Below are positions 1,289-28,793 of a stretch of 34,109 nt of DNA, piece by piece (within the stretch, counting starts at the first letter, position 1; each line of letters starts with the position of its first letter). Source of the DNA: a virus; IMG/VR virus record IMGVR_UViG_3300044705_000008, positions 1 to 34,109 of that record. One strand, written 5' to 3'. The notes under the pieces were generated by a model, which was given only the letters and a program-made list of their open reading frames with translations, was not told the DNA's origin and did no database searches. The position numbers and the translations under genes are program-made.

Positions 1289-3153
1289 TGCTGGCGGAAC
1301 TTGGGCAGATACTAAAGGGGTTTTGGGACGGCCTGCGTCCCGAACCCATTCTAACCGTCAGCGAATGGGCTGACAAACACCGCTATCTCTCGCCGTCCGC
1401 GTCAAGCGCGCCGGGCCTGTGGCGAACAGACCGTACGCCTTACTTGCGCGAGCCTATGGACAAGCTCAGCGCGCACGACCCGACGGAAAAGATTGTGTTT
1501 ATGAAGTCTGCGCAGATCGGGGGAACGGAAGCGGGCAATAACTGGATTGGGTACATAATGGATAACGCGCCGGGGCCGTGCCTTATGGTCATGCCGACCG
1601 ACGAAACGGTAAAGCGCAATTCAAAAACCCGCATTGCTCCGATGATCGAATCGACGCCGCGCCTACGCGACAAGGTAGGTACGGCGAAGTCGCGCGACGG
1701 CGACAACAGTATGTTTCAGAAGTCGTTCCCCGGTGGTGTTTTGATTATGACCGGGGCGAACTCTGCTGTCGGTCTTCGTTCTATGCCGATCCGATATTTG
1801 ATGCTGGACGAAGTAGACGGGTACCCGGAAGACCTGGACGAAGAAGGTTCGCCGATTGAACTGGCGATAAAGCGTACTGACACGTACGCCAAGCGCAAAA
1901 TTTTCATGGTGTCGACGCCGACCGTAGACGGCGTCTCGGCGATTCAGCGCGAGTTCGAAGGCACGGACCAACGCCGTTACAAAGTGGCCTGCCCGCATTG
2001 CGGCGGTTATCAGTTCTTGAAGTTCGAACGGTTGAAGTGGGAGGAACGGAAACCCGAAACCGCGCGGTATCACTGCGAACACTGCGACACGGGTATAGAG
2101 GAACGATTTAAAACGGCGATGCTGGCCGGCGGGTTTTGGGAAGCTACCGCGCCTGAGAACGCAAGCCGCGCCGTAGTCGGGTATCACATAAACGCTCTGT
2201 ACTCGCCGTTGGGCTGGTTTTCCTGGGCGAAGATGGCAGCGCAATACGAGGCGGCGCTAAAGTCGCCTACGAAAATGAAGGTGTTTGTAAACACCGTACT
2301 CGGCGAGACATACAAACAGAAAGGCGAGTCCCCGCCGTGGGAAAACCTGTTTAACCGCCGGGAAGACTACAAGGTGAACACGATAACCGCGGACACGCTG
2401 TTCTTGACGGCTGGCGTCGACGTTCAGCGGGACCGTATCGAACTGGAAGTAGTCGGCTGGTGTCAGGGCAAACGGTCGTACTCGGTAGACTACCGGGTGT
2501 TAGACGGCGACACGTCGTCGGCGTCGTCGCCGGTTTGGAACCGGCTTGCCGCGGTCGTAGGCGAAATGTGGGAGCGATCGGACGGCGTTATGTTGCCGCT
2601 TCGCCTTATGGCGGTGGACACGGGTTACAACACGAACGAAGTGTACGCATTCTGCCGCCGGTTCGATTCGACGCGAGTTATCCCGGTAAAGGGTAGCGAC
2701 TCCCTGGGCGTTCCTGTCGGGCCGCCGCGCGCGGTCGACGTTAGCCAGGCCGGCAAGAAAATAGGCAGGGTCAAGGTATGGCACGTCGGCGTTTCGATGC
2801 TGAAGTCTGAGCTTTACGGCTGGCTTCGATTGGAACGTGGGGAAGACGGTACAGTGCCCGCCGGTTACTGCCACTTCCCGCAATATGCCCCGAACTACTT
2901 TCGTGGCCTGACGGCTGAACAGCTACAGTTCCGAGTCGATAAACGCGGGTTCAGAAAATACGAGTGGGTGAAGAAGTACGACCGAAACGAACCGCTCGAC
3001 TGCCGTATTTATGCGCGCGCTGCGGCAAGTGTCGCAGGTCTTGACCGGTGGAACGACGAACAGTTGGCGCAGGTGTTCAGCGCAACGTATGTGCCGAAAA
3101 GCAGGCCGGCGCAGCAAACGGAGAAAAAAAGGCGGTCTTCTTTTTGGGATTGA
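1288..3153 (+). CDS. Terminase large subunit (GpA family)
   Basis: This 621-residue protein is the ATP-driven packaging motor and genome-cutting nuclease, acting at the portal vertex. It matches the Terminase_GpA family (lambda gpA). The N-terminal ATPase has a Walker A-like KSAQIGGTE (residues 73-81), Walker B YLMLDEVD (170-177) and a coupling motif MVSTPT (208-213). A zinc-binding insert has CPHC (C235, C238) and CEHC (C263, C266). The C-terminal RNase H-like nuclease has acidic residues in GVDVQ (D378), AVDTGY (D444) and EPLDCR. Length is normal for the family. The start overlaps the ssb stop. GpA enzymes of lambda-like phages cut at cos, so cohesive ends are likely but not shown here. Confidence 0.95.
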   Translation: MLAELGQILKGFWDGLRPEPILTVSEWADKHRYLSPSASSAPGLWRTDRTPYLREPMDKLSAHDPTEKIVFMKSAQIGGTEAGNNWIGYIMDNAPGPCLMVMPTDETVKRNSKTRIAPMIESTPRLRDKVGTAKSRDGDNSMFQKSFPGGVLIMTGANSAVGLRSMPIRYLMLDEVDGYPEDLDEEGSPIELAIKRTDTYAKRKIFMVSTPTVDGVSAIQREFEGTDQRRYKVACPHCGGYQFLKFERLKWEERKPETARYHCEHCDTGIEERFKTAMLAGGFWEATAPENASRAVVGYHINALYSPLGWFSWAKMAAQYEAALKSPTKMKVFVNTVLGETYKQKGESPPWENLFNRREDYKVNTITADTLFLTAGVDVQRDRIELEVVGWCQGKRSYSVDYRVLDGDTSSASSPVWNRLAAVVGEMWERSDGVMLPLRLMAVDTGYNTNEVYAFCRRFDSTRVIPVKGSDSLGVPVGPPRAVDVSQAGKKIGRVKVWHVGVSMLKSELYGWLRLERGEDGTVPAGYCHFPQYAPNYFRGLTAEQLQFRVDKRGFRKYEWVKKYDRNEPLDCRIYARAAASVAGLDRWNDEQLAQVFSATYVPKSRPAQQTEKKRRSSFWD

Positions 3154-3173
3154 TCGAAAAGACTTTAGATTTG
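3143..3173 (+). promoter_or_regulatory. Bacteroidota-type promoter at the end of the terminase gene
   Basis: TTTG (3143-3146), a 19-nt spacer and TAGATTTG (3166-3173) are an exact match to TTTG-N19-TAnnTTTG. The -33 element lies inside the 3' end of the terminase gene. The next ATG (3181) is only 7 nt past the -7 box, so the mRNA would carry about 4 nt of leader. Confidence 0.65.
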
Positions 3174-8391: not shown

Positions 8392-9783
8392 ATGGCAAAA
8401 ATAAATTTTCAGAACAAGGACGCGAACTCGACCGACCCGGCAACAGGTTACGTACGCGACGCCGACCTAAACGAAATCAAATCGGTAGTGAATGAGAACG
8501 CCGACGAATTGGCAGCAGCGCAAACCGCAGTAGCCGCGGCACAGAGTACGGCCGACACGGCGGTAGCCAATGCGGGAGCGGCGCAGTTAGATGCAGACAA
8601 CGCAGCGGCGGCAGCGGCGGCAGCGCAGAGTACAGCCGACCTAGCGATAATCAACGCCGCGAATGCGCAAGATGCTGCGGATGCGGCACAGACTACAGCG
8701 GATGCGGCACAAGAAACGGCTTCGAATGCATCTGCCGCAGTAAGCGGAGTTCAGTTTATCGCCGACGCCGCGTTGTCTACTGCGGAAACCGCGTTATCGA
8801 ATGCGGCGACGGCACAGGCCGCAGCCGACGCAGCGCAGAGCACCGCCGATACGGCGGTAGGCAATGCGTCTGAAGCTGAGACAAACGCTATAAGCACTGT
8901 GCGCGGCGGTGTCGTGTCGGCCGGCGATACACTCGCCAAGCTGTATACATTGATTCAGTCACTAACGGGCAGCGCACCGCCGGAAGCTTACGACCCGTCA
9001 GGCGGTGCGTTCCCTGCAACATTCGGCGGCGCTGCGATCAAAGGCGGAAACTCATTCCGTATTACGGCCGACGGTACAATGGGTGCGACAAATCCGAAAA
9101 CTGTTGCGCCTGAAGACTTATTGATAGCGCTGGTGAACAACCCGGCTAATGACGGCAATGACTGGACTGTAGTTGAAGGTAACAGGGGCGTCGGAACGTC
9201 GGCCGTCCTGGGCCTTACAAAGCTATATAGCGACCTTTTGGCTTCGAATACCGACGGTGCTGTAACACAAGCGGCGCTAGTCACCGCAATAGGATTGCTG
9301 GCCACCAAAGCCAGCCCGGCGCTAACAGGTACGCCGACCGCGCCAACTGCGCCGGACGCAACCAATAATACACAGATTGCCACGACGCAGTTTGTTCATA
9401 ACCTTGTGGACGTTAAAGCACCATTGGCGGGGTATAAGACGTTCAAAATAGGTGTTTTCGAAGACATAGCGCCGGTCGCGGTCATAGCGGCGAAAAGGAC
9501 ATTTCGTATGTCCTACGCTATGCAGCTTACGGGATTACGTGCCGAACTGAAAACCGCGCAGACAAGCGGCACAAAGGTAACGGTAGATGTTAAACAGAAC
9601 GGCGTATCCATTCTGTCAACGCCTCTAACGATTGACAACGGATCGAAAACAAGCGTCGGCGCTTCGGTTCCGGTGGTTATAAGCACGTCTGCGTTGCTTG
9701 ACGACGCGGAGATAACCATAGGTGTAACGGCCATTGGCGACGGCACAGCAACAGGTTTGAAAGTAACTTTTATTGGACAATGA
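8392..9783 (+). CDS. Alanine-rich tail fibre protein
   Basis: This 463-residue protein looks like a trimeric fibre. Residues 35-165 are a long run of Ala/Asp/Thr-rich repeats of the kind AAQSTADTAVANA, expected to form a coiled-coil shaft. A small domain follows (about 185-265), then the fibre motif TGTPTAPTAPDATNNTQIAT (about 310-330). A beta-rich C-terminal domain (345-463) may bind a ligand. Its position between head-completion and sheath genes is odd, as P2-type fibres usually follow gene I. Its DNA carries exact repeats shared with fibre genes at 21460 (54 bp) and 23545 (37 bp, inverted), pointing to recombination among fibre genes. The stop overlaps the next start (ATGA). Confidence 0.8.
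   Translation: MAKINFQNKDANSTDPATGYVRDADLNEIKSVVNENADELAAAQTAVAAAQSTADTAVANAGAAQLDADNAAAAAAAAQSTADLAIINAANAQDAADAAQTTADAAQETASNASAAVSGVQFIADAALSTAETALSNAATAQAAADAAQSTADTAVGNASEAETNAISTVRGGVVSAGDTLAKLYTLIQSLTGSAPPEAYDPSGGAFPATFGGAAIKGGNSFRITADGTMGATNPKTVAPEDLLIALVNNPANDGNDWTVVEGNRGVGTSAVLGLTKLYSDLLASNTDGAVTQAALVTAIGLLATKASPALTGTPTAPTAPDATNNTQIATTQFVHNLVDVKAPLAGYKTFKIGVFEDIAPVAVIAAKRTFRMSYAMQLTGLRAELKTAQTSGTKVTVDVKQNGVSILSTPLTIDNGSKTSVGASVPVVISTSALLDDAEITIGVTAIGDGTATGLKVTFIGQ
8539..8575 (+). repeat. 37-bp exact inverted repeat, copy 1
   Basis: This stretch of the fibre gene at 8392 is the exact reverse complement of 23353-23389 in the leftward fibre gene at 23545. Recombination between the two would invert nearly 15 kb including most tail genes, so the repeat is more likely a trace of sequence exchange than a working switch. 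Confidence 0.85.
8788..8841 (+). repeat. 54-bp exact direct repeat, copy 1
   Basis: These 54 bases are identical to 21736-21789 in the fibre gene at 21460 and in the same orientation, about 12.9 kb away. Flanking bases differ immediately on both sides. Each copy encodes part of an Ala-rich coiled-coil shaft. Such identity at the DNA level is more than protein similarity alone requires and suggests gene conversion or duplication. Confidence 0.85.
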
Positions 9784-11258
9784 GTTTTATACTAGACAAC
9801 GTAACCGAATACGACCTTGTCGGGGTCGTCGGAGAATCAAACGCAGGCGACACTACTGCATCTACAACATACGGCCCGGCTACGCCGCCGGGTGTGGCAT
9901 TGAAGTGGGGCGGGTCGTCATGGGTAGACGTAGCTGCAACCGACTTTAATAATCAGGTCGGCGTGTACGGTACGTTTTTAAAGCAGTTTGCATTGACCGT
10001 ATATAACAGGACTGGTCGCGGTACTATGGTTGTGAATGGTGCCGCGGGTGGTTCCGAGTTCTACCCGAACGGCGATAGCAACAACTGGTATACGTCTGGT
10101 ACCTGTTACGCGGCGTTTCAAGCAAAAATGTCTGCTGCGCTGGCAGCAACAGGTAAGCCGAATCCGGACGTAATTATTGTTTGGCTTGGCACAAATGATA
10201 TTCGAAGCGCTAACACGACAGCGGATATACAGACCGGCATTACGTCGTTGTTTACTCGCCTAATGACGGATTACCCGGGCGTTAGAATACTGGTTCAAAG
10301 TACGTCTGTAGACGGTTCAACTATCGGCATGACGCAGCGAAAGGCGTTCATGAAACAGGCGTTTCGTACGTTGGAAGATACGTACCCGCAAATTGAGCTT
10401 TTTGCTAACGCTGATTCGTACAATCAGCGTGGATACACTAGCGACATTCATTTTACGCAGGACGGCTACAACGCGGCAGGCGACCAAGCCGCCAGGTGTT
10501 GGGTATCGCCTTACGGAAAGCAGACCCGTGTAGCTCTATCGCAGTATGACAGCTATATAGGCGCGGCCAAGGAAGCCGATTGGAATACGTTTGTAACCTG
10601 GTGCCTTGCGAATGGTTGCTGGAAGGACACCGCATTGGACAGCTTACAAATATTCGTTGCGGACACGCATAAAAACCTGTGGAACGACTTTGCGAATCTG
10701 CAAACACCGCTTAATGGTGGCGTCGACTTCAATGTTAAAGAAAGCATTGGTATAGACGCAGCAAACGGCAAGTTCCTGGACGATAACCTCGTACCGAGCT
10801 TTGGATTGTTCAAAACGTCCACAACAGATTTTTACGAGGGGCAAAAGATACTGTTGAATTCTGTCCCGGGAGGTACAAACGCCGTGTTGGCAGAAGACAA
10901 TACGACGGGTGACAGGCGCCGTATGCTTCAGACCAGCACACCGAGCATTATTGTGAACACGGTAACGTCGACGAACATGGTGCACACGGCGACGATAACG
11001 GCGTTCCCTAACAACAAGTTCTTGGCGTGGGGACGTGGCGGAACGACTGAAGAATTTTTGATGGACGGCGCTGTTATACAAACGCGCACGTCAACAGCCG
11101 GTGTATCGTCTACCATGCCGCTAAGATACGGCGGGCGTACGGCTGGTTCGTACTGGCTTGGAAAGCTGCAATGTAAATACCGGCTTAAAAGAACAGGCGT
11201 GAATCTGGCTGCTTTCGAAGCGCAACTGAACACGCTGTTAGCGTCACTCGCCGCATAA
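9780..11258 (+). CDS. SGNH/GDSL-type esterase, probable tail-associated deacetylase
   Basis: The N-terminal 240 of 492 residues form an SGNH hydrolase. The nucleophile serine is in VVGESNAGD (S20), the oxyanion glycine is probably in NGAAGGS (about 86-91), the asparagine is in WLGTNDIR (N139), and the Asp/His pair is in SDIHFTQDGY (D222, H224). Such enzymes remove acetyl groups from polysaccharides. In a phage tail operon this suggests trimming of capsule or O-antigen during adsorption. Residues 250-492 are a separate domain with a lectin/LamG-like look (NKFLAWGRGG, TMPLRYGGRTAGSYWLGKL) that may bind glycan. It overlaps the upstream fibre gene by 4 nt, so the two are probably co-translated and may form one receptor-binding unit. 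The substrate is unknown. Confidence 0.85.
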   Translation: MSFILDNVTEYDLVGVVGESNAGDTTASTTYGPATPPGVALKWGGSSWVDVAATDFNNQVGVYGTFLKQFALTVYNRTGRGTMVVNGAAGGSEFYPNGDSNNWYTSGTCYAAFQAKMSAALAATGKPNPDVIIVWLGTNDIRSANTTADIQTGITSLFTRLMTDYPGVRILVQSTSVDGSTIGMTQRKAFMKQAFRTLEDTYPQIELFANADSYNQRGYTSDIHFTQDGYNAAGDQAARCWVSPYGKQTRVALSQYDSYIGAAKEADWNTFVTWCLANGCWKDTALDSLQIFVADTHKNLWNDFANLQTPLNGGVDFNVKESIGIDAANGKFLDDNLVPSFGLFKTSTTDFYEGQKILLNSVPGGTNAVLAEDNTTGDRRRMLQTSTPSIIVNTVTSTNMVHTATITAFPNNKFLAWGRGGTTEEFLMDGAVIQTRTSTAGVSSTMPLRYGGRTAGSYWLGKLQCKYRLKRTGVNLAAFEAQLNTLLASLAA

Positions 11259-20980: not shown

Positions 20981-21011
20981 TTTGCGCATTAGCACATTAC
21001 TTTTAACTTTG
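20981..21011 (+). promoter_or_regulatory. Bacteroidota-type promoter for the fibre/lysis segment
   Basis: TTTG (20981-20984), a 19-nt spacer and TAACTTTG (21004-21011) are an exact consensus match and the clearest promoter in the window. The next ATG (21017) begins 6 bases after the box, so the message would have a leader of only about 2 nt. Confidence 0.75.
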
Positions 21012-21016
21012 CATAT

Positions 21017-21448
21017 ATGGAGACACTTAATCCGCGTGGAGAGGTTCACGTAAAGATTTTCGACCGCGCTGGCAATCTCATAGAGGAAACGCGCGAGAAA
21101 AATTTATTCCTAAACGCTGGTCGTACCGCTCTTACAAAGCTTATCGGAGAGGGCGCGGCGAATAAGAAGGTTGCTAGTATCGGTTTCGGCACAAGCGGCA
21201 CAGTTCCTACGCCTGTAGACACGGCGCTAGTTGGTGCATTCGTGAAGCCTATAAACGGCGTTTCATATCCTGACGCCTTCACATTCGAAGTCGCTTGGTC
21301 CATTGAAACCGACGAAGGTAACGGCCTGGTTATTCGCGAAATGGGCCTGTACTCGGTTGACGGCACATTGATTGCGCGCCGTGTTCGTGAAGCCGTCAAT
21401 AAGACGGACGATATTCGTTTGGAAGGTACTTGGAAAATAACACTCTAA
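21017..21448 (+). CDS. Fibre-attachment protein, gpH N-terminus-like
   Basis: This 143-residue protein resembles the N-terminal adaptor of P2-like fibre proteins (DUF3751-like region). It has RAGNLIEETREKNLFLNAGR (residues 16-35), a beta-rich middle, and the typical VIREMGLYSVDGTLIARR (about 110-127). The family pattern is a strand with EMGLYxxDG that binds the baseplate. Here it is a stand-alone gene rather than part of a long fibre, with the shaft likely supplied by the next gene. It follows gpI by 41 nt and has its own promoter. Function is inferred from position and this motif. Confidence 0.65.
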   Translation: METLNPRGEVHVKIFDRAGNLIEETREKNLFLNAGRTALTKLIGEGAANKKVASIGFGTSGTVPTPVDTALVGAFVKPINGVSYPDAFTFEVAWSIETDEGNGLVIREMGLYSVDGTLIARRVREAVNKTDDIRLEGTWKITL

Positions 21449-21459
21449 AAAAGTCACAC

Positions 21460-22197
21460 ATGGCAAATCTACCAGAAACGCCGCAATGGGAAGACGGCAT
21501 ATACCAATTAGAAGTGGTCGACCTTGTTATCGGTGGCCTTGAAGGTGTTTCGAACAGGCAAGCGGAGCAACTTGGCAATCGAACGGCCTATCTGAAGCAA
21601 GCTGTTGAAACAGCACAGAGCGACGCAGACGCAGCACAGACTACAGCGGGCACGGCGGCAGCGAACGCAGCAGCAGCACAGGCCGCAGCAAACGCGGCAC
21701 AGACTGCGGCCGACGCTGCGCAGGGCACAGCAGACACCGCGTTATCGAATGCGGCGACGGCACAGGCCGCAGCCGACGCAGCGCAGAGCGACGCGGACGC
21801 CGCACAGGCTACGGCAGACGCCAAGGTGTCGAAGGCAGGCGACACAATGACGGGTGCTTTAGAGGTTCAGGGCGGTATCAGATTTCAGGACTCAGGTGAG
21901 TACGTAAAGACGAAACGTGTTTCGTTCTCAGGCTGGGATATGGTTTCGAATGCTACCAAGGTTGTTCCGCACGGCCTTCCAAACATGACAAAAATGCGGG
22001 AAGTTAGGGCGTATATTTTATCGAACGGCGGAAACTTCTTGCCGCTGAATAGTATGAATTCCGGCGATGTTGTAAGCGGTGGCGTGACACAAATGGACAA
22101 TACGAATGTAACGTTACGCCGAAGCGCGACGGGTCAGTTTAACAGCGCTCTGTATAATGCTGCCAGTGGCTATGTAGCTGTCGATTACGTAGATTAA
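21460..22197 (+). CDS. Tail fibre protein A (rightward)
   Basis: The first ~47 of 245 residues (PQWEDGIYQLEVVDLVIGG, then NRTAYLKQAVETAQ) are homologous to the N-termini of the two leftward fibres at 22778 and 23615, so all three probably dock to the same site. Residues 48-120 are Ala-rich coiled-coil repeats. A short SKAGDTMTGALEVQGG motif precedes a beta-rich C-terminal domain (about 145-245) unlike the collar domains of the other two. The longer frame starting at 21430 is rejected because the ATG at 21460 begins the conserved domain and lies after A-rich DNA. A 54-bp segment is identical to one in the fibre gene at 8392. Confidence 0.8.
   Translation: MANLPETPQWEDGIYQLEVVDLVIGGLEGVSNRQAEQLGNRTAYLKQAVETAQSDADAAQTTAGTAAANAAAAQAAANAAQTAADAAQGTADTALSNAATAQAAADAAQSDADAAQATADAKVSKAGDTMTGALEVQGGIRFQDSGEYVKTKRVSFSGWDMVSNATKVVPHGLPNMTKMREVRAYILSNGGNFLPLNSMNSGDVVSGGVTQMDNTNVTLRRSATGQFNSALYNAASGYVAVDYVD
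21580..21599 (+). repeat. 20-bp inverted repeat shared by fibres A and B (A copy)
   Basis: This 20-bp stretch is the exact reverse complement of 23403-23422. It encodes RTAYLKQ in the conserved docking domain. Recombination here would swap the fibre C-termini and invert the endolysin gene between them. Confidence 0.75.
21692..21720 (+). repeat. 29-bp inverted repeat shared by fibres A and B (A copy)
   Basis: This is the exact reverse complement of 23261-23289, in the coiled-coil shaft region of both genes. With the 20-bp pair it means two separate exact blocks are shared by the oppositely oriented fibre genes. Confidence 0.8.
21736..21789 (+). repeat. 54-bp exact direct repeat, copy 2
   Basis: Identical to 8788-8841 in the distant fibre gene, same orientation. 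Homologous recombination between the copies would delete about 12.9 kb of essential genes, so survival of the pair implies either recent exchange or selection against deletion. Confidence 0.85.
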
Positions 22198-22211
22198 ACA
22201 AAATAAACGGT

Positions 22212-22739
22212 GTGACAATAACAAAAGAACAATTTCGCGCGCTGTTGCCGTATGCGTCGGTCGCGAACGTGGAAAGGTTTTTCGCTCCGCTTACTGAAGC
22301 GATGGAAAAGCACGGTATTAACACGCCGAAACGCGTTGCGGCGTTCATTGCGCAGATTGCGCACGAATCGGGTTCGCTTCGATACGTTGAGGAAATCGCC
22401 AGCGGTGCGGCCTATGAAGGGCGGAAGGACCTTGGCAACAAGCAGCCAGGCGACGGCGTGCGTTTCAAGGGACGTGGTCTTATTCAGATAACCGGACGGT
22501 CGAACTACTCCGCTATATCAAAGGCATTCGGCGTTGACTTTGTGGCTAATCCGGAGCTATTGGAGACGCCGAAATACGCCGCTGAGTCTGCGGCCTGGTG
22601 GTGGGAAACGCACGTACTGAACGAGCTTGCCGACGCCGGTAATTTTCTGAAGATAACAAAGATCATCAACGGCGGAACGAACGGGCTTGCGGACAGGGAA
22701 AAGCACTACGCGACCTGCCGAAAGGTTCTGAATTGCTAA
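22212..22739 (+). CDS. Endolysin, glycoside hydrolase family 19-like
   Basis: This 175-residue protein is a chitinase-fold (GH19) endolysin that would cut glycan strands of peptidoglycan at the end of infection. The catalytic glutamate is in IAHESGSLRYVEE (E52), with the second acid probably E61. KGRGLIQITGRSNY (residues 86-99) and AAWWWETHVLNELA are conserved GH19 blocks, and it ends RKVLNC. There is no signal peptide or transmembrane segment, so a holin would be needed; none is recognisable nearby. A GTG starts the frame. It is in the late operon after fibre A and ends at a terminator. Confidence 0.9.
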   Translation: MTITKEQFRALLPYASVANVERFFAPLTEAMEKHGINTPKRVAAFIAQIAHESGSLRYVEEIASGAAYEGRKDLGNKQPGDGVRFKGRGLIQITGRSNYSAISKAFGVDFVANPELLETPKYAAESAAWWWETHVLNELADAGNFLKITKIINGGTNGLADREKHYATCRKVLNC

Positions 22740-22745
22740 AGGGGG

Positions 22746-22773
22746 AAAGGGGCGATACTCTCGCCCCTTTTTT
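22746..22773. terminator. Bidirectional terminator between convergent genes
   Basis: A 10-bp perfect stem (22746-22755 with 22761-22770) around the loop TACTC is followed by T residues on the plus strand; its A-rich 5' side (AAA) gives a shorter U-run on the minus strand. It separates the rightward endolysin from the leftward fibre B and would stop transcripts from both sides, most efficiently from the left. Confidence 0.85.
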
Positions 22774-22777
22774 CGTT

Positions 22778-23545
22778 TCAAATCTTTATACAATACAAAA
22801 GCGCGATGTTGCGCGGGCGTACCAGTGTTTGTACCATCGGTATGGTTCCTGTTACCTGTTGGGTTGACGTAGGAACGCTTGTCGTGGTTCCGGCTGAAAC
22901 AACTGCGTCGCCGTTGAGTACCCCGACCTTTATGCCGCTTGAGTCAATTCCCACTACGTCACGAACGCCGGACGCTGCCTGATTGCTACCGAATTGCCGG
23001 CTTGCGTCTATGCCTCTACCGTTGTCCCAACCGCGGGTAAATTCGCCGCGAAGGTCTGGTAATACGAATGTGTTTGTACCGTCGCCAACCCCGAACGTGG
23101 TTCCGATAGACGCGAATAGCGCGGCGTATGTGGTGCGCGATATAGTCGCGCCGTTGCACTCTAACCAGCCCGCCGGCGGGGTATTACGCGCAAATGCCAT
23201 AACCGCGCCAGGTGGTGCCGCTATGTTTGCAGTTGTCTGCGCGGTCGCGGCATTCGCTAACGCAGCGTCGGCCGCAGTCTGTGCCGCGTCGGCTGCGTCT
23301 TGCGCTGCGTTTGCTGTGGCCTGTGCTGCATTTGCCGCGGCCTGCGCCGCTGCCGCATTGGCTACCGCCGTGTCGGCCGTACTCTGTGCGGCTTCAGCGG
23401 CCTGCTTCAGATAGGCCGTTCGGTTGGCAAGCTGGTTCGCCTGGATGTTCGAAACACCGCTGTTTCCACCTAAAACCGGGTCTGTGGTTTCTAATTGGTA
23501 GATACCGGGTTCCCATAGTTCTGATTCAAGTAGGTTTATAAGCAT
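22778..23545 (-). CDS. Tail fibre protein B with collar domain (leftward)
   Basis: This 255-residue protein has the same docking domain as fibre A (PGIYQLETTDPVLGG, NRTAYLKQAAEAAQS), Ala-rich coiled-coil repeats at 50-112, and a phage tail-collar domain. The collar contains PGAVMAFARNTPPAGWLECN, the FVLPDLRGEFTRGWD block and the usual ending RPRNIALLYCIKI. A TTG in frame at 23566 would add 7 residues; the ATG at 23545 is chosen by comparison with the paralogue. It faces away from the late operon, so it cannot be made from the late rightward transcript. It could be expressed from a leftward promoter or after DNA inversion. Confidence 0.85.
   Translation of the reverse strand: MLINLLESELWEPGIYQLETTDPVLGGNSGVSNIQANQLANRTAYLKQAAEAAQSTADTAVANAAAAQAAANAAQATANAAQDAADAAQTAADAALANAATAQTTANIAAPPGAVMAFARNTPPAGWLECNGATISRTTYAALFASIGTTFGVGDGTNTFVLPDLRGEFTRGWDNGRGIDASRQFGSNQAASGVRDVVGIDSSGIKVGVLNGDAVVSAGTTTSVPTSTQQVTGTIPMVQTLVRPRNIALLYCIKI
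23261..23289 (-). repeat. 29-bp inverted repeat shared by fibres A and B (B copy)
   Basis: Exact reverse complement of 21692-21720; lies in the shaft region. Confidence 0.8.
23353..23389 (-). repeat. 37-bp exact inverted repeat, copy 2
   Basis: Exact reverse complement of 8539-8575 in the first fibre gene; lies at the start of the coiled-coil region of fibre B. Confidence 0.85.
23403..23422 (-). repeat. 20-bp inverted repeat shared by fibres A and B (B copy)
   Basis: Exact reverse complement of 21580-21599; encodes RTAYLKQ in the docking domain. Confidence 0.75.
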
Positions 23546-23556
23546 GTATGTTTTGT

Positions 23557-23571
23557 TGTTTGGCAAACATA
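23557..23571 (-). promoter_or_regulatory. Leftward -7 box and palindrome before fibre B
   Basis: On the minus strand TATGTTTG (plus 23564-23571) matches the Bacteroidota -7 box exactly, 18 nt before the fibre B ATG; no -33 TTTG at the usual distance was found. The box overlaps TGTTTG-G-CAAACA (23557-23569), a perfect palindrome with one central base that resembles the boxes at 37-107. A regulator acting at both sites is possible but unproven. Confidence 0.35.
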
Positions 23572-23614
23572 CAAAAACGCGTTTGAACTTGGCGTAGTTG
23601 AACCCCGATTTTTT

Positions 23615-24373
23615 TTAGACCTTTATGCAGTACAAAAGCGCCACGTTCCGCGGTCGTGTTTCGGTGCCGCCGGTCGCGCCCGTGTTGGCTGGTACGCCTA
23701 CTTCGCCGTGCGTCAGTTCGCCTAAAGCAAACCCGTTTGTGTCTGCAATAGACACGTTATAGCTGTGTGTGTGGCTTTTGAAGTCGTCAAGCTGGGCGCT
23801 ACCGAACGTGCGGCCTGGGTCTACGCCGCGTCCGTGGTCCCAACCCCGTGGGAATTCGCCGCGAAGGTCTGGAAGCTTGAACGTATTCACACCGTCGCCG
23901 GCCCCGAACGCTATTCCGATGGCTGTAAACAGCGCGTTGTATGTGGTGCGCGAAACTAAGGCGCCGTCGCATTCTAACCAGCCACTAGGCGGGGTCTGCC
24001 GTGCAAACGCCATAACCGCGCCGGTTGGCACAGTTTGTAGGCCGTCTAACTGCGCTTTATTGACCGCGTGCCCTGGGTCCGTTCCGGCTGGAATAGTCAG
24101 GTTGCCGGTCATAGTGTCGCCGGTTTTTGCTACCTTCAGGTCGGCTGTTTCCTGCGCAGTCGCTGCGGCTTCTATCGCAATGTCTGCCGCTGTCTGTGCG
24201 TTTTCGGCTGCGGCCTGGGCAGCTTCTACCGATTGCTTCAGGTACGCCGTTCTGTTCGCAAGCTGATTCGCTTGAATGTTTGAAACGCCACTATCTCCGC
24301 CGACTACCGGGTCGGTCGTTTCGAGTCTATAAATGAAGTCTTCCCATTGGGCTGATTCGTCTAACTGCGCCAT
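23615..24373 (-). CDS. Tail fibre protein C with collar domain (leftward)
   Basis: This 252-residue protein is the second leftward fibre. Residues 1-48 match the docking domain of A and B (AQWEDFIYRLETTDPVVGG). It has a short Ala-rich coiled coil (48-80), a KVAKTGDTMTGNLTIPAG motif (about 84-101) and a collar domain with TGAVMAFARQTPPSGWLECD, FKLPDLRGEFPRGWDHG, and a divergent tip before RPRNVALLYCIKV. The tip is rich in His/Ser/Thr (KSHTHSYNVSIADTNGFALG) and probably makes receptor contact. The gene starts 33 nt after the integrase stop on the same strand, so it may be co-transcribed with it. Confidence 0.85.
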   Translation of the reverse strand: MAQLDESAQWEDFIYRLETTDPVVGGDSGVSNIQANQLANRTAYLKQSVEAAQAAAENAQTAADIAIEAAATAQETADLKVAKTGDTMTGNLTIPAGTDPGHAVNKAQLDGLQTVPTGAVMAFARQTPPSGWLECDGALVSRTTYNALFTAIGIAFGAGDGVNTFKLPDLRGEFPRGWDHGRGVDPGRTFGSAQLDDFKSHTHSYNVSIADTNGFALGELTHGEVGVPANTGATGGTETRPRNVALLYCIKV

Positions 24374-24406: not shown

Positions 24407-25690
24407 TCAGCGCAGGTTTATGACCTTTGGCGCAGGTTCATTTTCGATATTTTCAGCGAACCAACGTCCCCAACGCTCCATAGCCGCGCGCTTTTCGTCG
24501 AGGTAGTCGTATCGGTCGTAGTGCTTGCTTGACGTGTCGCCTTTTTTCGAGTGGTTCTGCAATAGGTCGCGCTCTACCTTGCTGATTTTTGCGACGCCGG
24601 TAAGCGTCTTCCATGTGCGGCGAATGTCGCGCAGGCAGAAGGCCGTAACGTCGTTTTCTGTTACGTACCGGTGAACGATTGAGCCGAGCGTGTCCGAGTT
24701 CATAACAAGATTCGGATAGTCGGACGACGGGAAGAAAAGCCCGTGTTCGTTCGGTTTCATTTCGTCAAGGATAGCAGCGGCCTGCGGCGGTACCGGCAGA
24801 ACATGGCCGCGCTGTGTGCGCTTACCTGTTTTGGTGGCGTCCTTCGGCCATTCGATAAGGTGCCTATCGGCGTTGTAAAACGCTGCGCGTATCCTGACTA
24901 TTTCAACCGCGCGCTGTCCTAGTAGTGCGTGTAGCTTCAGCGCGGCGACGTTGTGCGGTTCAATGTATCGTGCACTTTTGCCGCGGCGTTCCGTGGCCGG
25001 CCCGTTGAGCCATTGCCAGTACGCCCGGAGTTCGTCGGCATTCAGCCACCTTTCCCCTGAGCGCGCCGGGTCTGTTGGCGTGGCGCTTACCGGGTTCCCC
25101 TTCAGGTGAAAAACCTTGTTCGTGGCTTCGATACGGTAGTCGTTTTCGAGGCGCAAAGCCCAACCATACGCGGCGCTAATCATGGCGCGTAGTTTGGTCG
25201 CGAACGTCGGGCCGCGGGCGTAAATCTTGCGCAGCAGTGCGACAATGTCGTCAGTTTCGATAGCGGAAGCCGGGCGCGTGCCGTCAAGTTCTTTAAGGGC
25301 GACGTTCAGGCAGTAGCGCGTATCGTCTACCGACGCGGCGCCGTCGTTTTTCAGGTAGGCTACGTACCCGTCGAATAGGTCGCTAAGCGTGCCGGGTTTG
25401 TCATGGTCGGTCTTCTGCCGGCGTATGTCGCTGCGGCTTTCGATAGCCGGGGCGAATTTTTCCGAAAACAGTTTCCGGGCGTCGGCCAGGGGCAGCGTTG
25501 GATATGTGCCGAGTTTGATTGTGCGGCGCTTCCCGTCAATCCATTGACGGGCGAACCATTCGGCAACGACGCGCTTTCCGGTGTTGCGGATACGCAGGAT
25601 AAGTCGACCGGTACCCTTGCCAGTGCCGTCCTTCAGTTCGCGGTTACGGCCTTTGGCAATCGCGTTCTTTATGGCTGTGTCGGTAATCAT
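24407..25690 (-). CDS. int: Tyrosine-recombinase integrase (DUF4102/P4-like type)
   Basis: This 427-residue protein would recombine phage and host attachment sites. It has an N-terminal arm-binding region of the DUF4102 kind (ITDTAIKNAIAKGRNRELKDG near 2-22, GKRRTIKLGTYPTLPLADAR), a core-binding domain and a catalytic domain. In the catalytic domain the first arginine is R260 (LHALLGQRAVEI), the HxxR-equivalent pair is in FCLRDIRRTW (R354, R357, with Arg where His is usual), the second histidine is H380 (LLQNHS) and the nucleophile is Y391 (SKHYDRYDY). An open frame extends to 25840, but the ATG at 25690 begins the conserved domain. It might also act on the neighbouring fibre genes; that is speculation. 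Confidence 0.92.
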   Translation of the reverse strand: MITDTAIKNAIAKGRNRELKDGTGKGTGRLILRIRNTGKRVVAEWFARQWIDGKRRTIKLGTYPTLPLADARKLFSEKFAPAIESRSDIRRQKTDHDKPGTLSDLFDGYVAYLKNDGAASVDDTRYCLNVALKELDGTRPASAIETDDIVALLRKIYARGPTFATKLRAMISAAYGWALRLENDYRIEATNKVFHLKGNPVSATPTDPARSGERWLNADELRAYWQWLNGPATERRGKSARYIEPHNVAALKLHALLGQRAVEIVRIRAAFYNADRHLIEWPKDATKTGKRTQRGHVLPVPPQAAAILDEMKPNEHGLFFPSSDYPNLVMNSDTLGSIVHRYVTENDVTAFCLRDIRRTWKTLTGVAKISKVERDLLQNHSKKGDTSSKHYDRYDYLDEKRAAMERWGRWFAENIENEPAPKVINLR

Positions 25691-25858
25691 TGGTGGCGGT
25701 TTTGGTGGCGGTATGGTGCAAGCTGTTGGCTTGTTTATGTTCTCACCGACGCCAGCGCTTTGAGGTGCAAAATTCAATGACTTCCGAAGGTTGCGCGGAA
25801 TCCGGCGTGAACTCCCGGGATTAGACAAAGTTTTGAGCACTCATGCAAACGAATTCTC
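25691..25858. other. Intergenic region upstream of the integrase (possible attP area)
   Basis: This 168-nt stretch lies between the integrase start and the HTH-membrane gene. P4-type integrases usually have attP near their start, but no tRNA 3' end or convincing arm-site repeats could be read here. It contains two copies of GGTGGCGGT (25691-25710 area). Confidence 0.25.
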
Positions 25859-26221
25859 TTACCCTTTGAAATAACGGAATTTTTCGAGATGGATTTGTCG
25901 GTTAGTGGCGGTTTCGGGTAGCGGTTTCGGGTAGATGGAAATACGGGGGCATTGCCGCGACGCCAGGTAGCCGCAGTAGAAGCCTATCGACAGCCATATA
26001 ACGGCCGGAATAAGAACCTTTAAGACGCTGCGCGTTATCGTCCGCGCTCGCTCCCACGCTATAACGTCGTCGAGTCTGTACAGGATGCGCCCGCCGATCC
26101 TGGTGTATGGCGGGCCTTTTCCGCGGCTGCGCCAGTTCGCGAGTGTGCTTTCTTTTATCTTGTTGCCGAACCGGGCCGATAGTTCAGCAGGCGTAAGAAA
26201 CTGTTCTGACTTATCAGGCAT
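25859..26221 (-). CDS. Helix-turn-helix protein with a transmembrane segment
   Basis: The first ~60 of 120 residues form a winged HTH of the excisionase type (FLTPAELSARFGNKIKESTL, ANWRSRGKGPPYTRIGGRIL), closely similar to the protein at 26812. Unlike that one it continues with a hydrophobic helix (residues 65-87, VLKVLIPAVIWLSIGFYCGY) and a basic, Pro-containing tail. It therefore looks like a membrane-anchored DNA-binding protein. It precedes the integrase by 168 nt on the same strand, so it may be a control or excision factor. No such fusion is known to me. An alternative is a decayed extension kept open by chance. Confidence 0.65.
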   Translation of the reverse strand: MPDKSEQFLTPAELSARFGNKIKESTLANWRSRGKGPPYTRIGGRILYRLDDVIAWERARTITRSVLKVLIPAVIWLSIGFYCGYLASRQCPRISIYPKPLPETATNRQIHLEKFRYFKG

Positions 26222-26266
26222 GGAAGGCGCCCGTAAAACACGCTTTTGTTAACGCATAACCTAAGC

Positions 26267-26280
26267 GGAAATTAATTTCC
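26267..26280. promoter_or_regulatory. 14-bp palindrome between divergent genes
   Basis: GGAAATTAATTTCC is a perfect palindrome between the leftward HTH-membrane gene and the rightward gene at 26366. Its place fits an operator for one of the HTH proteins. No consensus promoter of the TAnnTTTG kind overlaps it. Confidence 0.45.
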
Positions 26281-26351
26281 CGGAGTGGGAATAAAATTGC
26301 TTGTTTGGCATGTTAGAAATGCGATGTAAGAATGATGCACCCTAACAAAAC

Positions 26352-26365
26352 GGAGGTGGGTTGTT
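26352..26365 (+). promoter_or_regulatory. Strong Shine-Dalgarno before the gene at 26366
   Basis: GGAGGTGGG begins at 26352, with GGAGG 9 nt before the ATG. Few other starts in the window have such a site, so it decides this start and suggests a gene of different origin from its neighbours. Confidence 0.7.
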
Positions 26366-26758
26366 ATGGCTGAAAACGGATTTGCAAGCATGATTGCAAA
26401 GGAACGTGAACGTCTGAGCAAACAACGAGAAGACGCGATAGCACGTCGCAAGGCTATCGAAAGCGAATTGGAGGGAATCGAAACCGAACTGGCTGCGGTG
26501 AATGCTTACGAAGCGGCGAAAAGCGGCAAGCTGCCGCGCGCGCGTAATGGTGTCAGGGCGCCGCGTGGGCAGCGCCAACAGCAAATAATTGAACTATTGC
26601 ACCGGCACGCGTCCGGCCTAAGCCGCGGCGATATTATCGAGAAGCTAGGCGCGAAGGGTAACAAATCGGAGGAACAGGGCGTTTCAAATGCACTGCACGT
26701 GCTGAAGAAACTAAAGAAGGTCACGGCCAAGGGAGGGAAGTACACCGCGCGAAAGTAA
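26366..26758 (+). CDS. Coiled-coil plus winged-helix protein of unknown function
   Basis: The first ~55 of 130 residues form a strongly charged coiled coil (KERERLSKQREDAIARRKAI). A basic linker (LPRARNGVRAPRGQRQQQ) leads to a winged-helix-like C-terminal domain, including IIELLHRHASGLSRGDIIEK (residues 74-93) and NALHVLKKLKKVTAKGGKYT. It may bind DNA as a dimer. It is a lone rightward gene between two leftward operons, with a strong ribosome site before it and a terminator after it. It could be a regulator, a nucleoid-like protein or a moron gene expressed in the lysogen. The family is not recognised with certainty. Confidence 0.7.
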   Translation: MAENGFASMIAKERERLSKQREDAIARRKAIESELEGIETELAAVNAYEAAKSGKLPRARNGVRAPRGQRQQQIIELLHRHASGLSRGDIIEKLGAKGNKSEEQGVSNALHVLKKLKKVTAKGGKYTARK

Positions 26759-26776
26759 ATCTGCCGCGACGCAAAC

Positions 26777-26807
26777 GGCCCGCCGGTTAGTTCCGGCGGG
26801 CCTTTTT
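26777..26807. terminator. Rho-independent terminator after the gene at 26366
   Basis: A 10-bp perfect stem, GGCCCGCCGG (26777-26786) with its complement (26793-26802), encloses a 6-nt loop and is followed by five T residues (26803-26807). It ends the rightward gene and, since the convergent HTH gene ends at 26812, may also terminate leftward transcripts, though its minus-strand U-run is short. Confidence 0.85.
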
Positions 26808-26811
26808 GTTT

Positions 26812-27021
26812 TCAGGCTTTGACGTACTGATTTGTTCCTGCGACCGTCCGCCTTTCCTCCCATTTCACCAACTCGACTACAGGGTACAAGATTCGCCCGC
26901 CGATCTTTGTGAAGGGTGGCGAAATACCGGCGCTTCGCCAGTTTGCGAGCGTTCTAACGGTTATTTTGCCCTTGTACCTGTCTACAAGTTCAGACGGTGT
27001 AAAAAACTCCTTCGTAGGCAT
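26812..27021 (-). CDS. Excisionase-like helix-turn-helix protein
   Basis: This 69-residue protein is of the kind used as excisionases or small repressors. The HTH is at residues 7-56: FFTPSELVDRYKGKITVRTL, ANWRSAGISPPFTKIGGRIL and the wing PVVELVKWEERR. About half its residues match the N-terminal half of the HTH-membrane protein at 25859. It is the last gene of the RecE-RecT operon (2 nt after the RecT stop), and its stop lies at the terminator. An excision role (Xis) is inferred from fold and size; being in the recombination operon rather than beside the integrase, it could also be a regulator. Confidence 0.75.
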   Translation of the reverse strand: MPTKEFFTPSELVDRYKGKITVRTLANWRSAGISPPFTKIGGRILYPVVELVKWEERRTVAGTNQYVKA

Positions 27022-27023
27022 GG

Positions 27024-27908
27024 CTACAGAATGTCTCCGCTTGTGCTGCTGTCCGCTTTTCCTGTGTTGTCGATCACCTGGGCGTCTGTCGTAAGTGTGT
27101 CGTTGCTTGCTCCGTTCTGTTTCTCCTTTGCTCGCTGTGAAATCTTTTCGTTCAACCGGCTGGCCGCATTGCTGGCAGCCTGCACGTTGTTTTCTGGCAT
27201 TGCCGTTAAAGGTTCGTTACTAATGTCGATAGCTTCGTGCTGGTCGTGCATTCCCATAAGAATTTCGGGGCAGTGCAAGCGCCCGAAGAACGCAGCCGCG
27301 CGGTAGCGCAACATAAGGTCGGGCATGGTCTTCCACTTGCTGTCCTGCTTTGTGTACCAACCCTCACGCACAGCCATTTCAATACTGACGGGCGAGCCTT
27401 CAATAACAGGTAGGCCGGCTTCGTAGGCTTCGGCCATGCTCCGAACATGCGGCGGGATATTGACGCCAGCCGGTACAGTCCACGCCGTACATTCCTGGTC
27501 GTTTATGTTCACCTGCACGGTTTTTTTCGTGCGGGCGCCTTTTGGCCCTTCCCATATCTCCGACGGAACCTGCTTTGCGCCGATCTTCCGAAGATCAAAG
27601 CGGATTGGTGCGAATCTGCCGCAGCTATTGATACTCGCAATAATGTAGCTACTCGACCACGACGGGCGCCCGCTGATTACATGCAGGTTCTGCATAACCA
27701 TTAGCGGCGAGGTTCCGGCACGGTGCGCCATTTCGAGCGCGACCATAGTGTTCGCGACGTTGTTCTGGTACTGCTCGGGCACCATTGTCGACGACGCAAG
27801 CATTTTAGCGACGCGTTGCGCCTGCTCGAATGCATTGCCGCTGCCATAGATGGAAACGGCGCCGTTGTTATTCTGACCTTGCAGAACGAGTTCTTTGGAT
27901 TGTTCCAT
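27024..27908 (-). CDS. recT: RecT-type single-strand annealing protein
   Basis: This 294-residue protein matches the RecT family, which pairs complementary single strands and works with a 5'-3' exonuclease for phage recombination. Supporting blocks: NTMVALEMAHRAGTSPLMVM (residues 48-67), QNLHVISGRPSWSSSYIIAS (about 68-87), a CTAWTVPAG strand, REGWYTKQDSKWKTMPDLML (about 181-200) and RYRAAAFFGRLHCPEILMGM (about 201-220). The Asn/Gln/Ser-rich C-terminal tail is probably flexible. It follows the RecE-like gene by 4 nt. Confidence 0.92.
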   Translation of the reverse strand: MEQSKELVLQGQNNNGAVSIYGSGNAFEQAQRVAKMLASSTMVPEQYQNNVANTMVALEMAHRAGTSPLMVMQNLHVISGRPSWSSSYIIASINSCGRFAPIRFDLRKIGAKQVPSEIWEGPKGARTKKTVQVNINDQECTAWTVPAGVNIPPHVRSMAEAYEAGLPVIEGSPVSIEMAVREGWYTKQDSKWKTMPDLMLRYRAAAFFGRLHCPEILMGMHDQHEAIDISNEPLTAMPENNVQAASNAASRLNEKISQRAKEKQNGASNDTLTTDAQVIDNTGKADSSTSGDIL

Positions 27909-28755: not shown

Positions 28756-28786
28756 CAAAGGTATTTGTTTGATTGGAAAAAACAAT
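28756..28786 (-). promoter_or_regulatory. Leftward promoter for the RecE/RecT operon
   Basis: On the minus strand ATTG (plus 28783-28786), a 19-nt spacer and TACCTTTG (plus 28756-28763) match the consensus with one mismatch in the -33 element. The start should fall near 28752, about 24 nt before the ATG. It overlaps the rightward promoter at 28764-28793. Confidence 0.6.
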
Positions 28787-28793
28787 ATCTTTG
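28764..28793 (+). promoter_or_regulatory. Rightward promoter for the helicase/primase operon
   Basis: TTTG (28764-28767), an 18-nt spacer and TATCTTTG (28786-28793) match the Bacteroidota consensus. It almost fully overlaps the leftward promoter, so both cannot be occupied at once. An ATG at 28801 begins 7 nt after the box. Confidence 0.65.

Follow-up and report, generated by a model that had tools for sequence, protein, structure and literature searches.

The window considered here is the whole 34,109-bp IMG/VR virus record IMGVR_UViG_3300044705_000008, which holds the gene set of a temperate contractile-tailed phage, and the subject of this analysis is its three tail fibre genes, named A, B and C, which lie on opposite strands. 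A preliminary description had proposed that these genes form a host-range switch operated by inversion at repeats shared between them. The reading that we favour, and hold to be fairly probable, is that A, B and C are three complete, receptor-binding fibre paralogues with a common docking domain, encoded on two strands, whose linkers have been recombined, with B and C probably expressed leftward in place. On the sequence evidence, the locus differs from known fibre switches in that it carries full-length paralogues on opposite strands and bears no sign of a dedicated flip-switch such as that of phage Mu.

Three fibre genes with a common docking domain

21460–22197, plus strand: fibre A (phrog_3100 tail fibre, 3.1e-26)
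21460–21609, plus strand: docking domain of A (profile match, 8e-26)
22778–23545, minus strand: fibre B, with docking domain, Ala-rich linker and tail-collar domain
23393–23545, minus strand: docking domain of B (profile match, 7e-25)
23615–24373, minus strand: fibre C, with docking domain, short linker, KTGDTMTG motif and tail-collar domain
24224–24373, minus strand: docking domain of C (profile match, 1e-26)

Fibre A starts at the ATG at 21460, downstream of the TTG at 21430 given in the list of open reading frames (ORFs), and consists of the docking domain (residues 1–50), an Ala-rich linker (residues ~51–125), a KAGDTMTG motif and an orphan C-terminal domain; its last ~125 residues matched no Pfam domain, no phage record and no confirmed viral contig. 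Fibre B starts at the ATG at 23545, not at the TTG at 23566, and fibre C at 24373. The Pfam Collar domain (PF07484) was found at the C-terminal end of both B (5.6e-26) and C (2.5e-24), and the ORFs together with Pfam bear out the earlier picture of a rightward A and of leftward B and C with tail-collar ends. The first ~47 residues had been described as shared by all three; the proteins are indeed homologous over ~50 residues, but with 65–77% amino-acid identity (0.77 for B–C, 0.69 for B–A) they are not identical. B and C are full-length genes, each with its own docking domain, rather than truncated C-terminal cassettes. Over the collar region their synonymous divergence (dS) is about 1.05 and their nonsynonymous divergence (dN) about 0.39, which suggests that they are old paralogues kept by selection, the collar parts being under purifying selection. 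A recent tandem duplication of B and C was ruled out by the collar dS of about 1.

The docking-domain profile was run on 255 sequences (254 loci and the window), and 238 were positive; the surveyed flanks span 8–10 kb and some loci are fragments, so that occurrence elsewhere is a lower bound. Docking copies on both strands were found only in the window among the 238 loci, while four other loci carry two copies, each pair on one strand. A gene-by-gene reading of eight relatives (L181, L182, L183, L184, L190, L197, L258 and L259) found a single docking fibre in the late operon, and the collar domain was matched on that fibre in L181, L182, L184, L190 and L197. The C-terminus of A thus departs from the family norm, the collar form residing in B and C.

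Exact repeats and past exchange of DNA

21580–21599, plus strand: 20-bp repeat CGAACGGCCTATCTGAAGCA in A (RTAYLKQ codons), exact
23403–23422, minus strand: inverted copy of the 20-bp repeat in B
21692–21720, plus strand: 29-bp repeat in the Ala-rich linker of A, exact
23261–23289, minus strand: inverted copy of the 29-bp repeat in the linker of B
21736–21789, plus strand: 54-bp exact direct repeat, copy in the linker of A, paired with 8788–8841
8788–8841, plus strand: copy of the 54-bp repeat in gene 8392–9783
8539–8575, plus strand: 37-bp exact repeat in gene 8392–9783, with an inverted match at 23353–23389 in B
23353–23389, minus strand: copy of the 37-bp repeat in the linker of B
8392–9783, plus strand: Ala-rich tail- or fibre-like gene with linker tracts in common with A and B

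The 20-bp and 29-bp inverted repeats on which the switch had been proposed to act are exact, lie where they had been placed and are the two longest inverted repeats within 20–26 kb. What had been missed is that the longest exact repeats of the window, the 54-bp direct and the 37-bp inverted one, both involve gene 8392–9783, which lies ~13 kb from A. All these repeats share codon phase between partners, so that a crossover between A and B at the 20- or 29-bp repeat would stay in frame. When synonymous codons were permuted inside each region (300 trials), an A–B match of at least 20 bp arose in 2 of the 300 trials and one of at least 29 bp in none, and matches as long as the 54-bp and 37-bp repeats were likewise absent from all 300. 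Between fibre C and A, B or gene 8392–9783, no repeat exceeded this synonymous-codon null. Among all fetched loci, only the window has copies of the 20-bp repeat, and the docking/linker junction, searched for as a degenerate DNA pattern, gave no match. An assembly chimera at the repeats is conceivable; with a maximum of 54 bp, they are short against usual read lengths. As a separate observation, a GDSL-type hydrolase gene (9780–11258) follows gene 8392–9783; the pair is flanked by the neck and sheath genes, an unusual position for a fibre module.

The silent sites of the docking domains carry a trace of exchange. Silent-codon identity is 0.72 between A and B, while the best value among the ~237 docking domains outside the window is 0.59 with A and 0.57 with B; that of C with A and with B (0.47–0.50) is at background level. 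Among informative codons, where all three docking domains have the same amino acid, 11 support the A–B pair, 2 the A–C pair and 3 the B–C pair (p 0.004). The silent-site similarity expected of homologous exchange between fibre paralogues is therefore present for A and B. B and C differ at silent sites (pS) by 0.78 over the docking part and by 0.57 over the collar part, which, taken with the A–B silent identity, gives B a mosaic history, its docking part sharing recent DNA history with A and its collar part grouping with C. Exact tracts of this type also connect A and B with gene 8392–9783, so the exchange is not confined to the fibre pair. RecT-type recombinases join short, diverged homologies during phage growth (PMC3945230), and the RecT of the window is a plausible agent of the exchange.

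22212–22739, plus strand: GH19-type endolysin (phrog_181, 3e-68), within any A/B inversion segment
22740–22778, plus strand: strong hairpin and T-run (−23.6 kcal/mol, z −4.6), between the convergent units A–lysin and C–B
23564–23571, minus strand: TATGTTTG, which matches the −7 element of Bacteroidota promoters and lies 18 nucleotides ahead of the ATG of B
27024–27908, minus strand: RecT-like annealase (phrog_561, 5.9e-74), a candidate for linker recombination

In the favoured reading, A is the last structural gene of the rightward late operon, followed by lysin and terminator, while C and B make up another unit that runs leftward and comes immediately downstream of the integrase gene. Leftward expression of B and C in place is probable, and the terminator between the endolysin and B fits the convergence of two transcripts. 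Because the docking domain is common to the three fibres, their products could take the same baseplate site, as alternatives or as mixtures. The inverted repeats are, on this view, docking and Ala-linker codons kept or made identical by general homologous exchange among A, B and gene 8392–9783, presumably by RecT and/or host RecA, and not sites of a dedicated invertase. Over evolutionary time such exchange can transfer C-termini from one fibre to another, and a rare crossover could flip the 1.7–1.8-kb segment between A and B, with regulation or high frequency not indicated.

Several points weigh against this reading. The non-collar C-terminus of A would fit a past swap, the A–B exchange signature is expected from gene conversion and inversion alike, and shared codon bias could raise A–B silent identity, though that of C, from the same genome, is not raised. 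The 1.7–1.8-kb segment with its in-frame exact repeat borders also suits a rare inversion, and a real inversion is possible. Moreover, the putative promoter of B has no clear −33 element, and no promoter element was found for C.

Tests for an invertible segment and rival explanations

No serine invertase was found in the window by a search with the KP12 invertase, a query that matched 37 survey loci, nor was a serine recombinase present among the annotated ORFs. Sites of gix type (AAACCNNGGTTT core) gave two three-mismatch matches in the window against 1.74 expected, neither of them in the locus. The KP12 contig, whose docking domain is 72% identical to that of A over the first 50 residues, served as a positive control, with an inverted 28-nucleotide gix-type pair and a Gin-type invertase adjoining its fibre. 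Contig L013 (OM835952.1) was submitted as belonging to Klebsiella phage KP12 (Vequintavirinae); it is of Mu-like prophage type with a G-type invertible segment and looks to be a different phage. When the fibre ORF was scanned for inverted repeats with the downstream 6 kb, the longest in invertase-bearing loci reached 166 bp, many of them coinciding with gix sites, and the 29 bp of the window stands out against the 12–16 bp of most loci without an invertase match. The window repeat is thus real but unlike known crossover sites, and inspection showed no palindromic arms in the 20-bp repeat. In three other loci (L055, L137 and L207), inverted repeats of 56–159 bp stand beside the docking fibre with no invertase match in the surveyed stretch, and L137 has a gix core within each arm region.

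The constant N-terminus with truncated cassettes on the other strand that marks Gin, Cin and Min-type systems is absent from the locus. The same holds for the two marks of a Rin-like system, namely a tyrosine recombinase that has no arm-binding domain and is separate from the integrase, and one short crossover site that recurs at each variable gene, C having no exact run with A or B beyond the null. A check for a diversity-generating retroelement found no reverse transcriptase among the scanned ORFs, some small ORFs being outside the scan. Inversion of the A/B segment would reverse the endolysin and its terminator, both of which lie inside it, and the cost foreseen in the preliminary description is real in that the only endolysin recognised in the window (ORFs scanned) would become antisense. 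Crossovers at the repeats shared with gene 8392–9783 would remove about 13 kb or turn about 15 kb around, affecting most tail genes, and C would be unable to join in an inversion since it shares no long repeats. Overall, the layout does not appear tuned for switching, and a dedicated switch is not supported. Of the earlier proposal that the repeats recombine, the trace of past A–B exchange upholds one part, while the programmed switch finds no support, no invertase having been recognised, no gix-type site standing above chance and the neighbouring recombinase being an integrase; similarly, the entry of other C-termini into the late operon is conceivable for B, where a crossover would be in frame, but not for C without repeats, and both are complete genes rather than silent cassettes.

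24407–25840, minus strand: arm-binding tyrosine integrase, whose start is probably the ATG near 25690
13769–13841 of L190: tRNA-Met between fibre and integrase
8225–8298 of L197: tRNA-Met between fibre and integrase
9632–9704 of L258: tRNA-Met between fibre and integrase
9631–9703 of L259: tRNA-Met between fibre and integrase

The neighbours of the fibre genes are as first described, with a GH19 endolysin between A and B, an adjoining integrase and an encoded RecT. The recombinase, the only tyrosine recombinase recognised in the window, matches Arm-DNA-bind_3 (6.4e-9) and the phrog_1 integrase and, from these features, is classed as a P4-type phage integrase; a role for it in inversion seems unlikely. 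Its homologues in L190, L197, L258 and L259 (41–44% identity; 41% for that of L190, beside tRNA-Met) are on the plus strand and follow a single fibre and a tRNA-Met, which is the probable attachment (att) site of these four relatives. These are temperate myophages of Bacteroidota type from IMG/VR, and they resemble the window in the order J, tail I, gp21017-like gene and fibre, and in having a homologous integrase, HTH17, RecT, DUF3799 nuclease and helicase. Unlike the window, they carry one plus-strand fibre with docking and collar domains and no B or C, and their integrase is on the plus strand with tRNA-Met beside it. In the integration region of the window (24407–27021), the integrase is reversed with respect to these four syntenic relatives and there are two HTH17 (excisionase-like) genes instead of one. 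A simple inversion of a relative's fibre–integrase block was rejected as the origin of this order, as it would yield the integrase left of the fibre and not B–C–integrase. No convincing tRNA or T-arm att core was found near the window integrase, and the phage att site (attP) was not located. Short direct repeats (TTGGTGGCGGTTTTGG-like and GCGGTTTCGGGTAG; window 25690–25934) flank the likely integrase start and may be attP arm-type sites.

Three other explanations were weighed against this evidence. The repeats could act as a switch that needs no specific enzyme, with RecT or RecA at the 20- and 29-bp repeats inverting the segment so frequently that the collar C-terminus of B comes to stand behind the late-operon start of A. 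Homologous recombination between inverted repeats is a recognised inversion route (PMC4272514), RecT is encoded and enzymes of its type are relaxed in recombination (PMC3945230), and the repeats are exact, inverted and in frame between genes that have exchanged DNA. However, repeats of 20–29 bp are short, C has none and would be unusable, inversion would put the one recognised endolysin out of action in the late phase of expression, and the inverted arrangement is seen in no relative; furthermore, the equal or longer repeats with gene 8392–9783 would lead to large deletions and inversions, so that the repeats look untuned. We regard such a switch as unlikely, and its elaboration into a RecT-driven, low-rate host-range switch, whose inverted state would also silence the late lysin and so couple receptor choice to delayed lysis, as distinctly improbable.

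The other two explanations turn on the integrase. B and C might be passengers of a foreign integration block (B–C–integrase–HTH17a–26366 ORF) taken up in reverse orientation, expressed chiefly in the lysogen or silent and with no role in the virion. The reversed integrase and doubled HTH17 of the window, set against the plus-strand integrase and single HTH17 of the four relatives, fit this view, as does the position of B and C, cargo genes being usually found next to an integrase. Yet the two collar genes are intact and show a dN lower than dS, B and C carry the docking domain of A, and B has exchanged DNA with A; this origin, too, is rather unlikely. A dedicated site-specific inversion, in which the neighbouring integrase or a host invertase acting in trans uses the repeats, appears highly improbable. 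A tyrosine recombinase does adjoin C, inversions by such enzymes are abundant in Bacteroidota hosts, and for the Rin system proposed in Bifidobacterium prophages a second inverted locus has no adjacent recombinase (PMC6109161). Nonetheless, the window enzyme has an arm-binding domain and integrase relatives, the 20-bp repeat is without palindromic arms, A, B and C have no site in common, no gix-type site stands above chance, and B and C have docking domains of their own.

Host signals and comparison with known systems

74–103, 3144–3173, 20982–21011 and 28756–28793: Bacteroidota-type promoter elements ahead of operon starts

Rightward genes of the window run from terminase, portal, capsid, sheath, tape measure and baseplate to fibre A and the endolysin, and the leftward ones comprise fibres B and C, the integrase, RecT and a PD-(D/E)XK-like protein (DUF3799). 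Shine-Dalgarno sequences are nearly absent from the window and its relatives, a Bacteroidota-type feature, and TTG-N18-23-TAnnTTTG elements, which follow the sigma-ABfr consensus (PMC7366714), were seen six times against 1.6 expected. A divergent pair of them lies between the DUF3799 and helicase genes, and one stands at or just upstream of the DUF3799 start in all four syntenic relatives. These promoter elements and the missing Shine-Dalgarno sequences suggest that the host is probably a member of the Bacteroidota. A sigma-70 promoter scan of the window was uninformative (one match against 3.2 expected). Searches of viral records found no second record of this phage, and no close relatives of its tail I protein or, by a single query, of its integrase were found in viral contigs.

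Fibre switching is usually credited to dedicated invertases, and the locus described here combines complete fibre paralogues on opposite strands and a measurable trace of exchange with no invertase found. If inversion by general recombination were frequent, searches for invertases and gix-type sites could not predict host-range switching; if it is not, the locus exemplifies fibre evolution in which Ala-rich linkers are the joints of recombination, and does so for phages seemingly of Bacteroidota, whose tails have been little studied.

The systems closest in appearance are the Mu G, P1 C, p15B Min and carotovoricin Er segments, which are inverted by the serine invertases Gin, Cin, Min and Ein. 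They share with the window alternative fibre C-termini on opposite strands and fibres downstream of the baseplate J and tail I genes, and the first 50 residues of the docking domain of A are 72–76% identical to those of the KP12 contig or of phage Phi06_2974 B. The window differs in that no invertase or gix-type site was found, the opposite-strand genes are full length with a docking domain, an endolysin and a terminator intervene, and the repeats are ordinary coding repeats. The Rin shufflon of Bifidobacterium prophages, a proposed tyrosine invertase acting on receptor-binding genes, combines one constant N-terminus with several truncated variable cassettes and an 11-bp rix site at each (PMC6109161). 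It resembles the window in that a temperate phage has variants of a receptor-binding gene close to a tyrosine recombinase, whereas the window has three full genes, no common site and a recombinase that is an integrase.

With regard to general exchange, Rad52-like phage recombinases (lambda Red beta, RecT of Rac and phi80, Erf of D3) are associated with mosaic exchange (PMC3945230). The window similarly encodes a RecT, and short, diverged homologies have been exchanged between related genes, but here a single genome holds the trace, which connects inverted paralogues with one another and with a third gene of common linker, and the role of RecT is putative. In Pectobacterium carotovoricins, the fibres keep their N-terminal part and differ in their C-termini, which change through homologous exchange as well as through inversion (PMC13195805). 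Some carotovoricin-host Pectobacterium loci bear the docking domain of the window, although the exchange there takes place between strains at a single locus, and in the window between paralogues of one phage.

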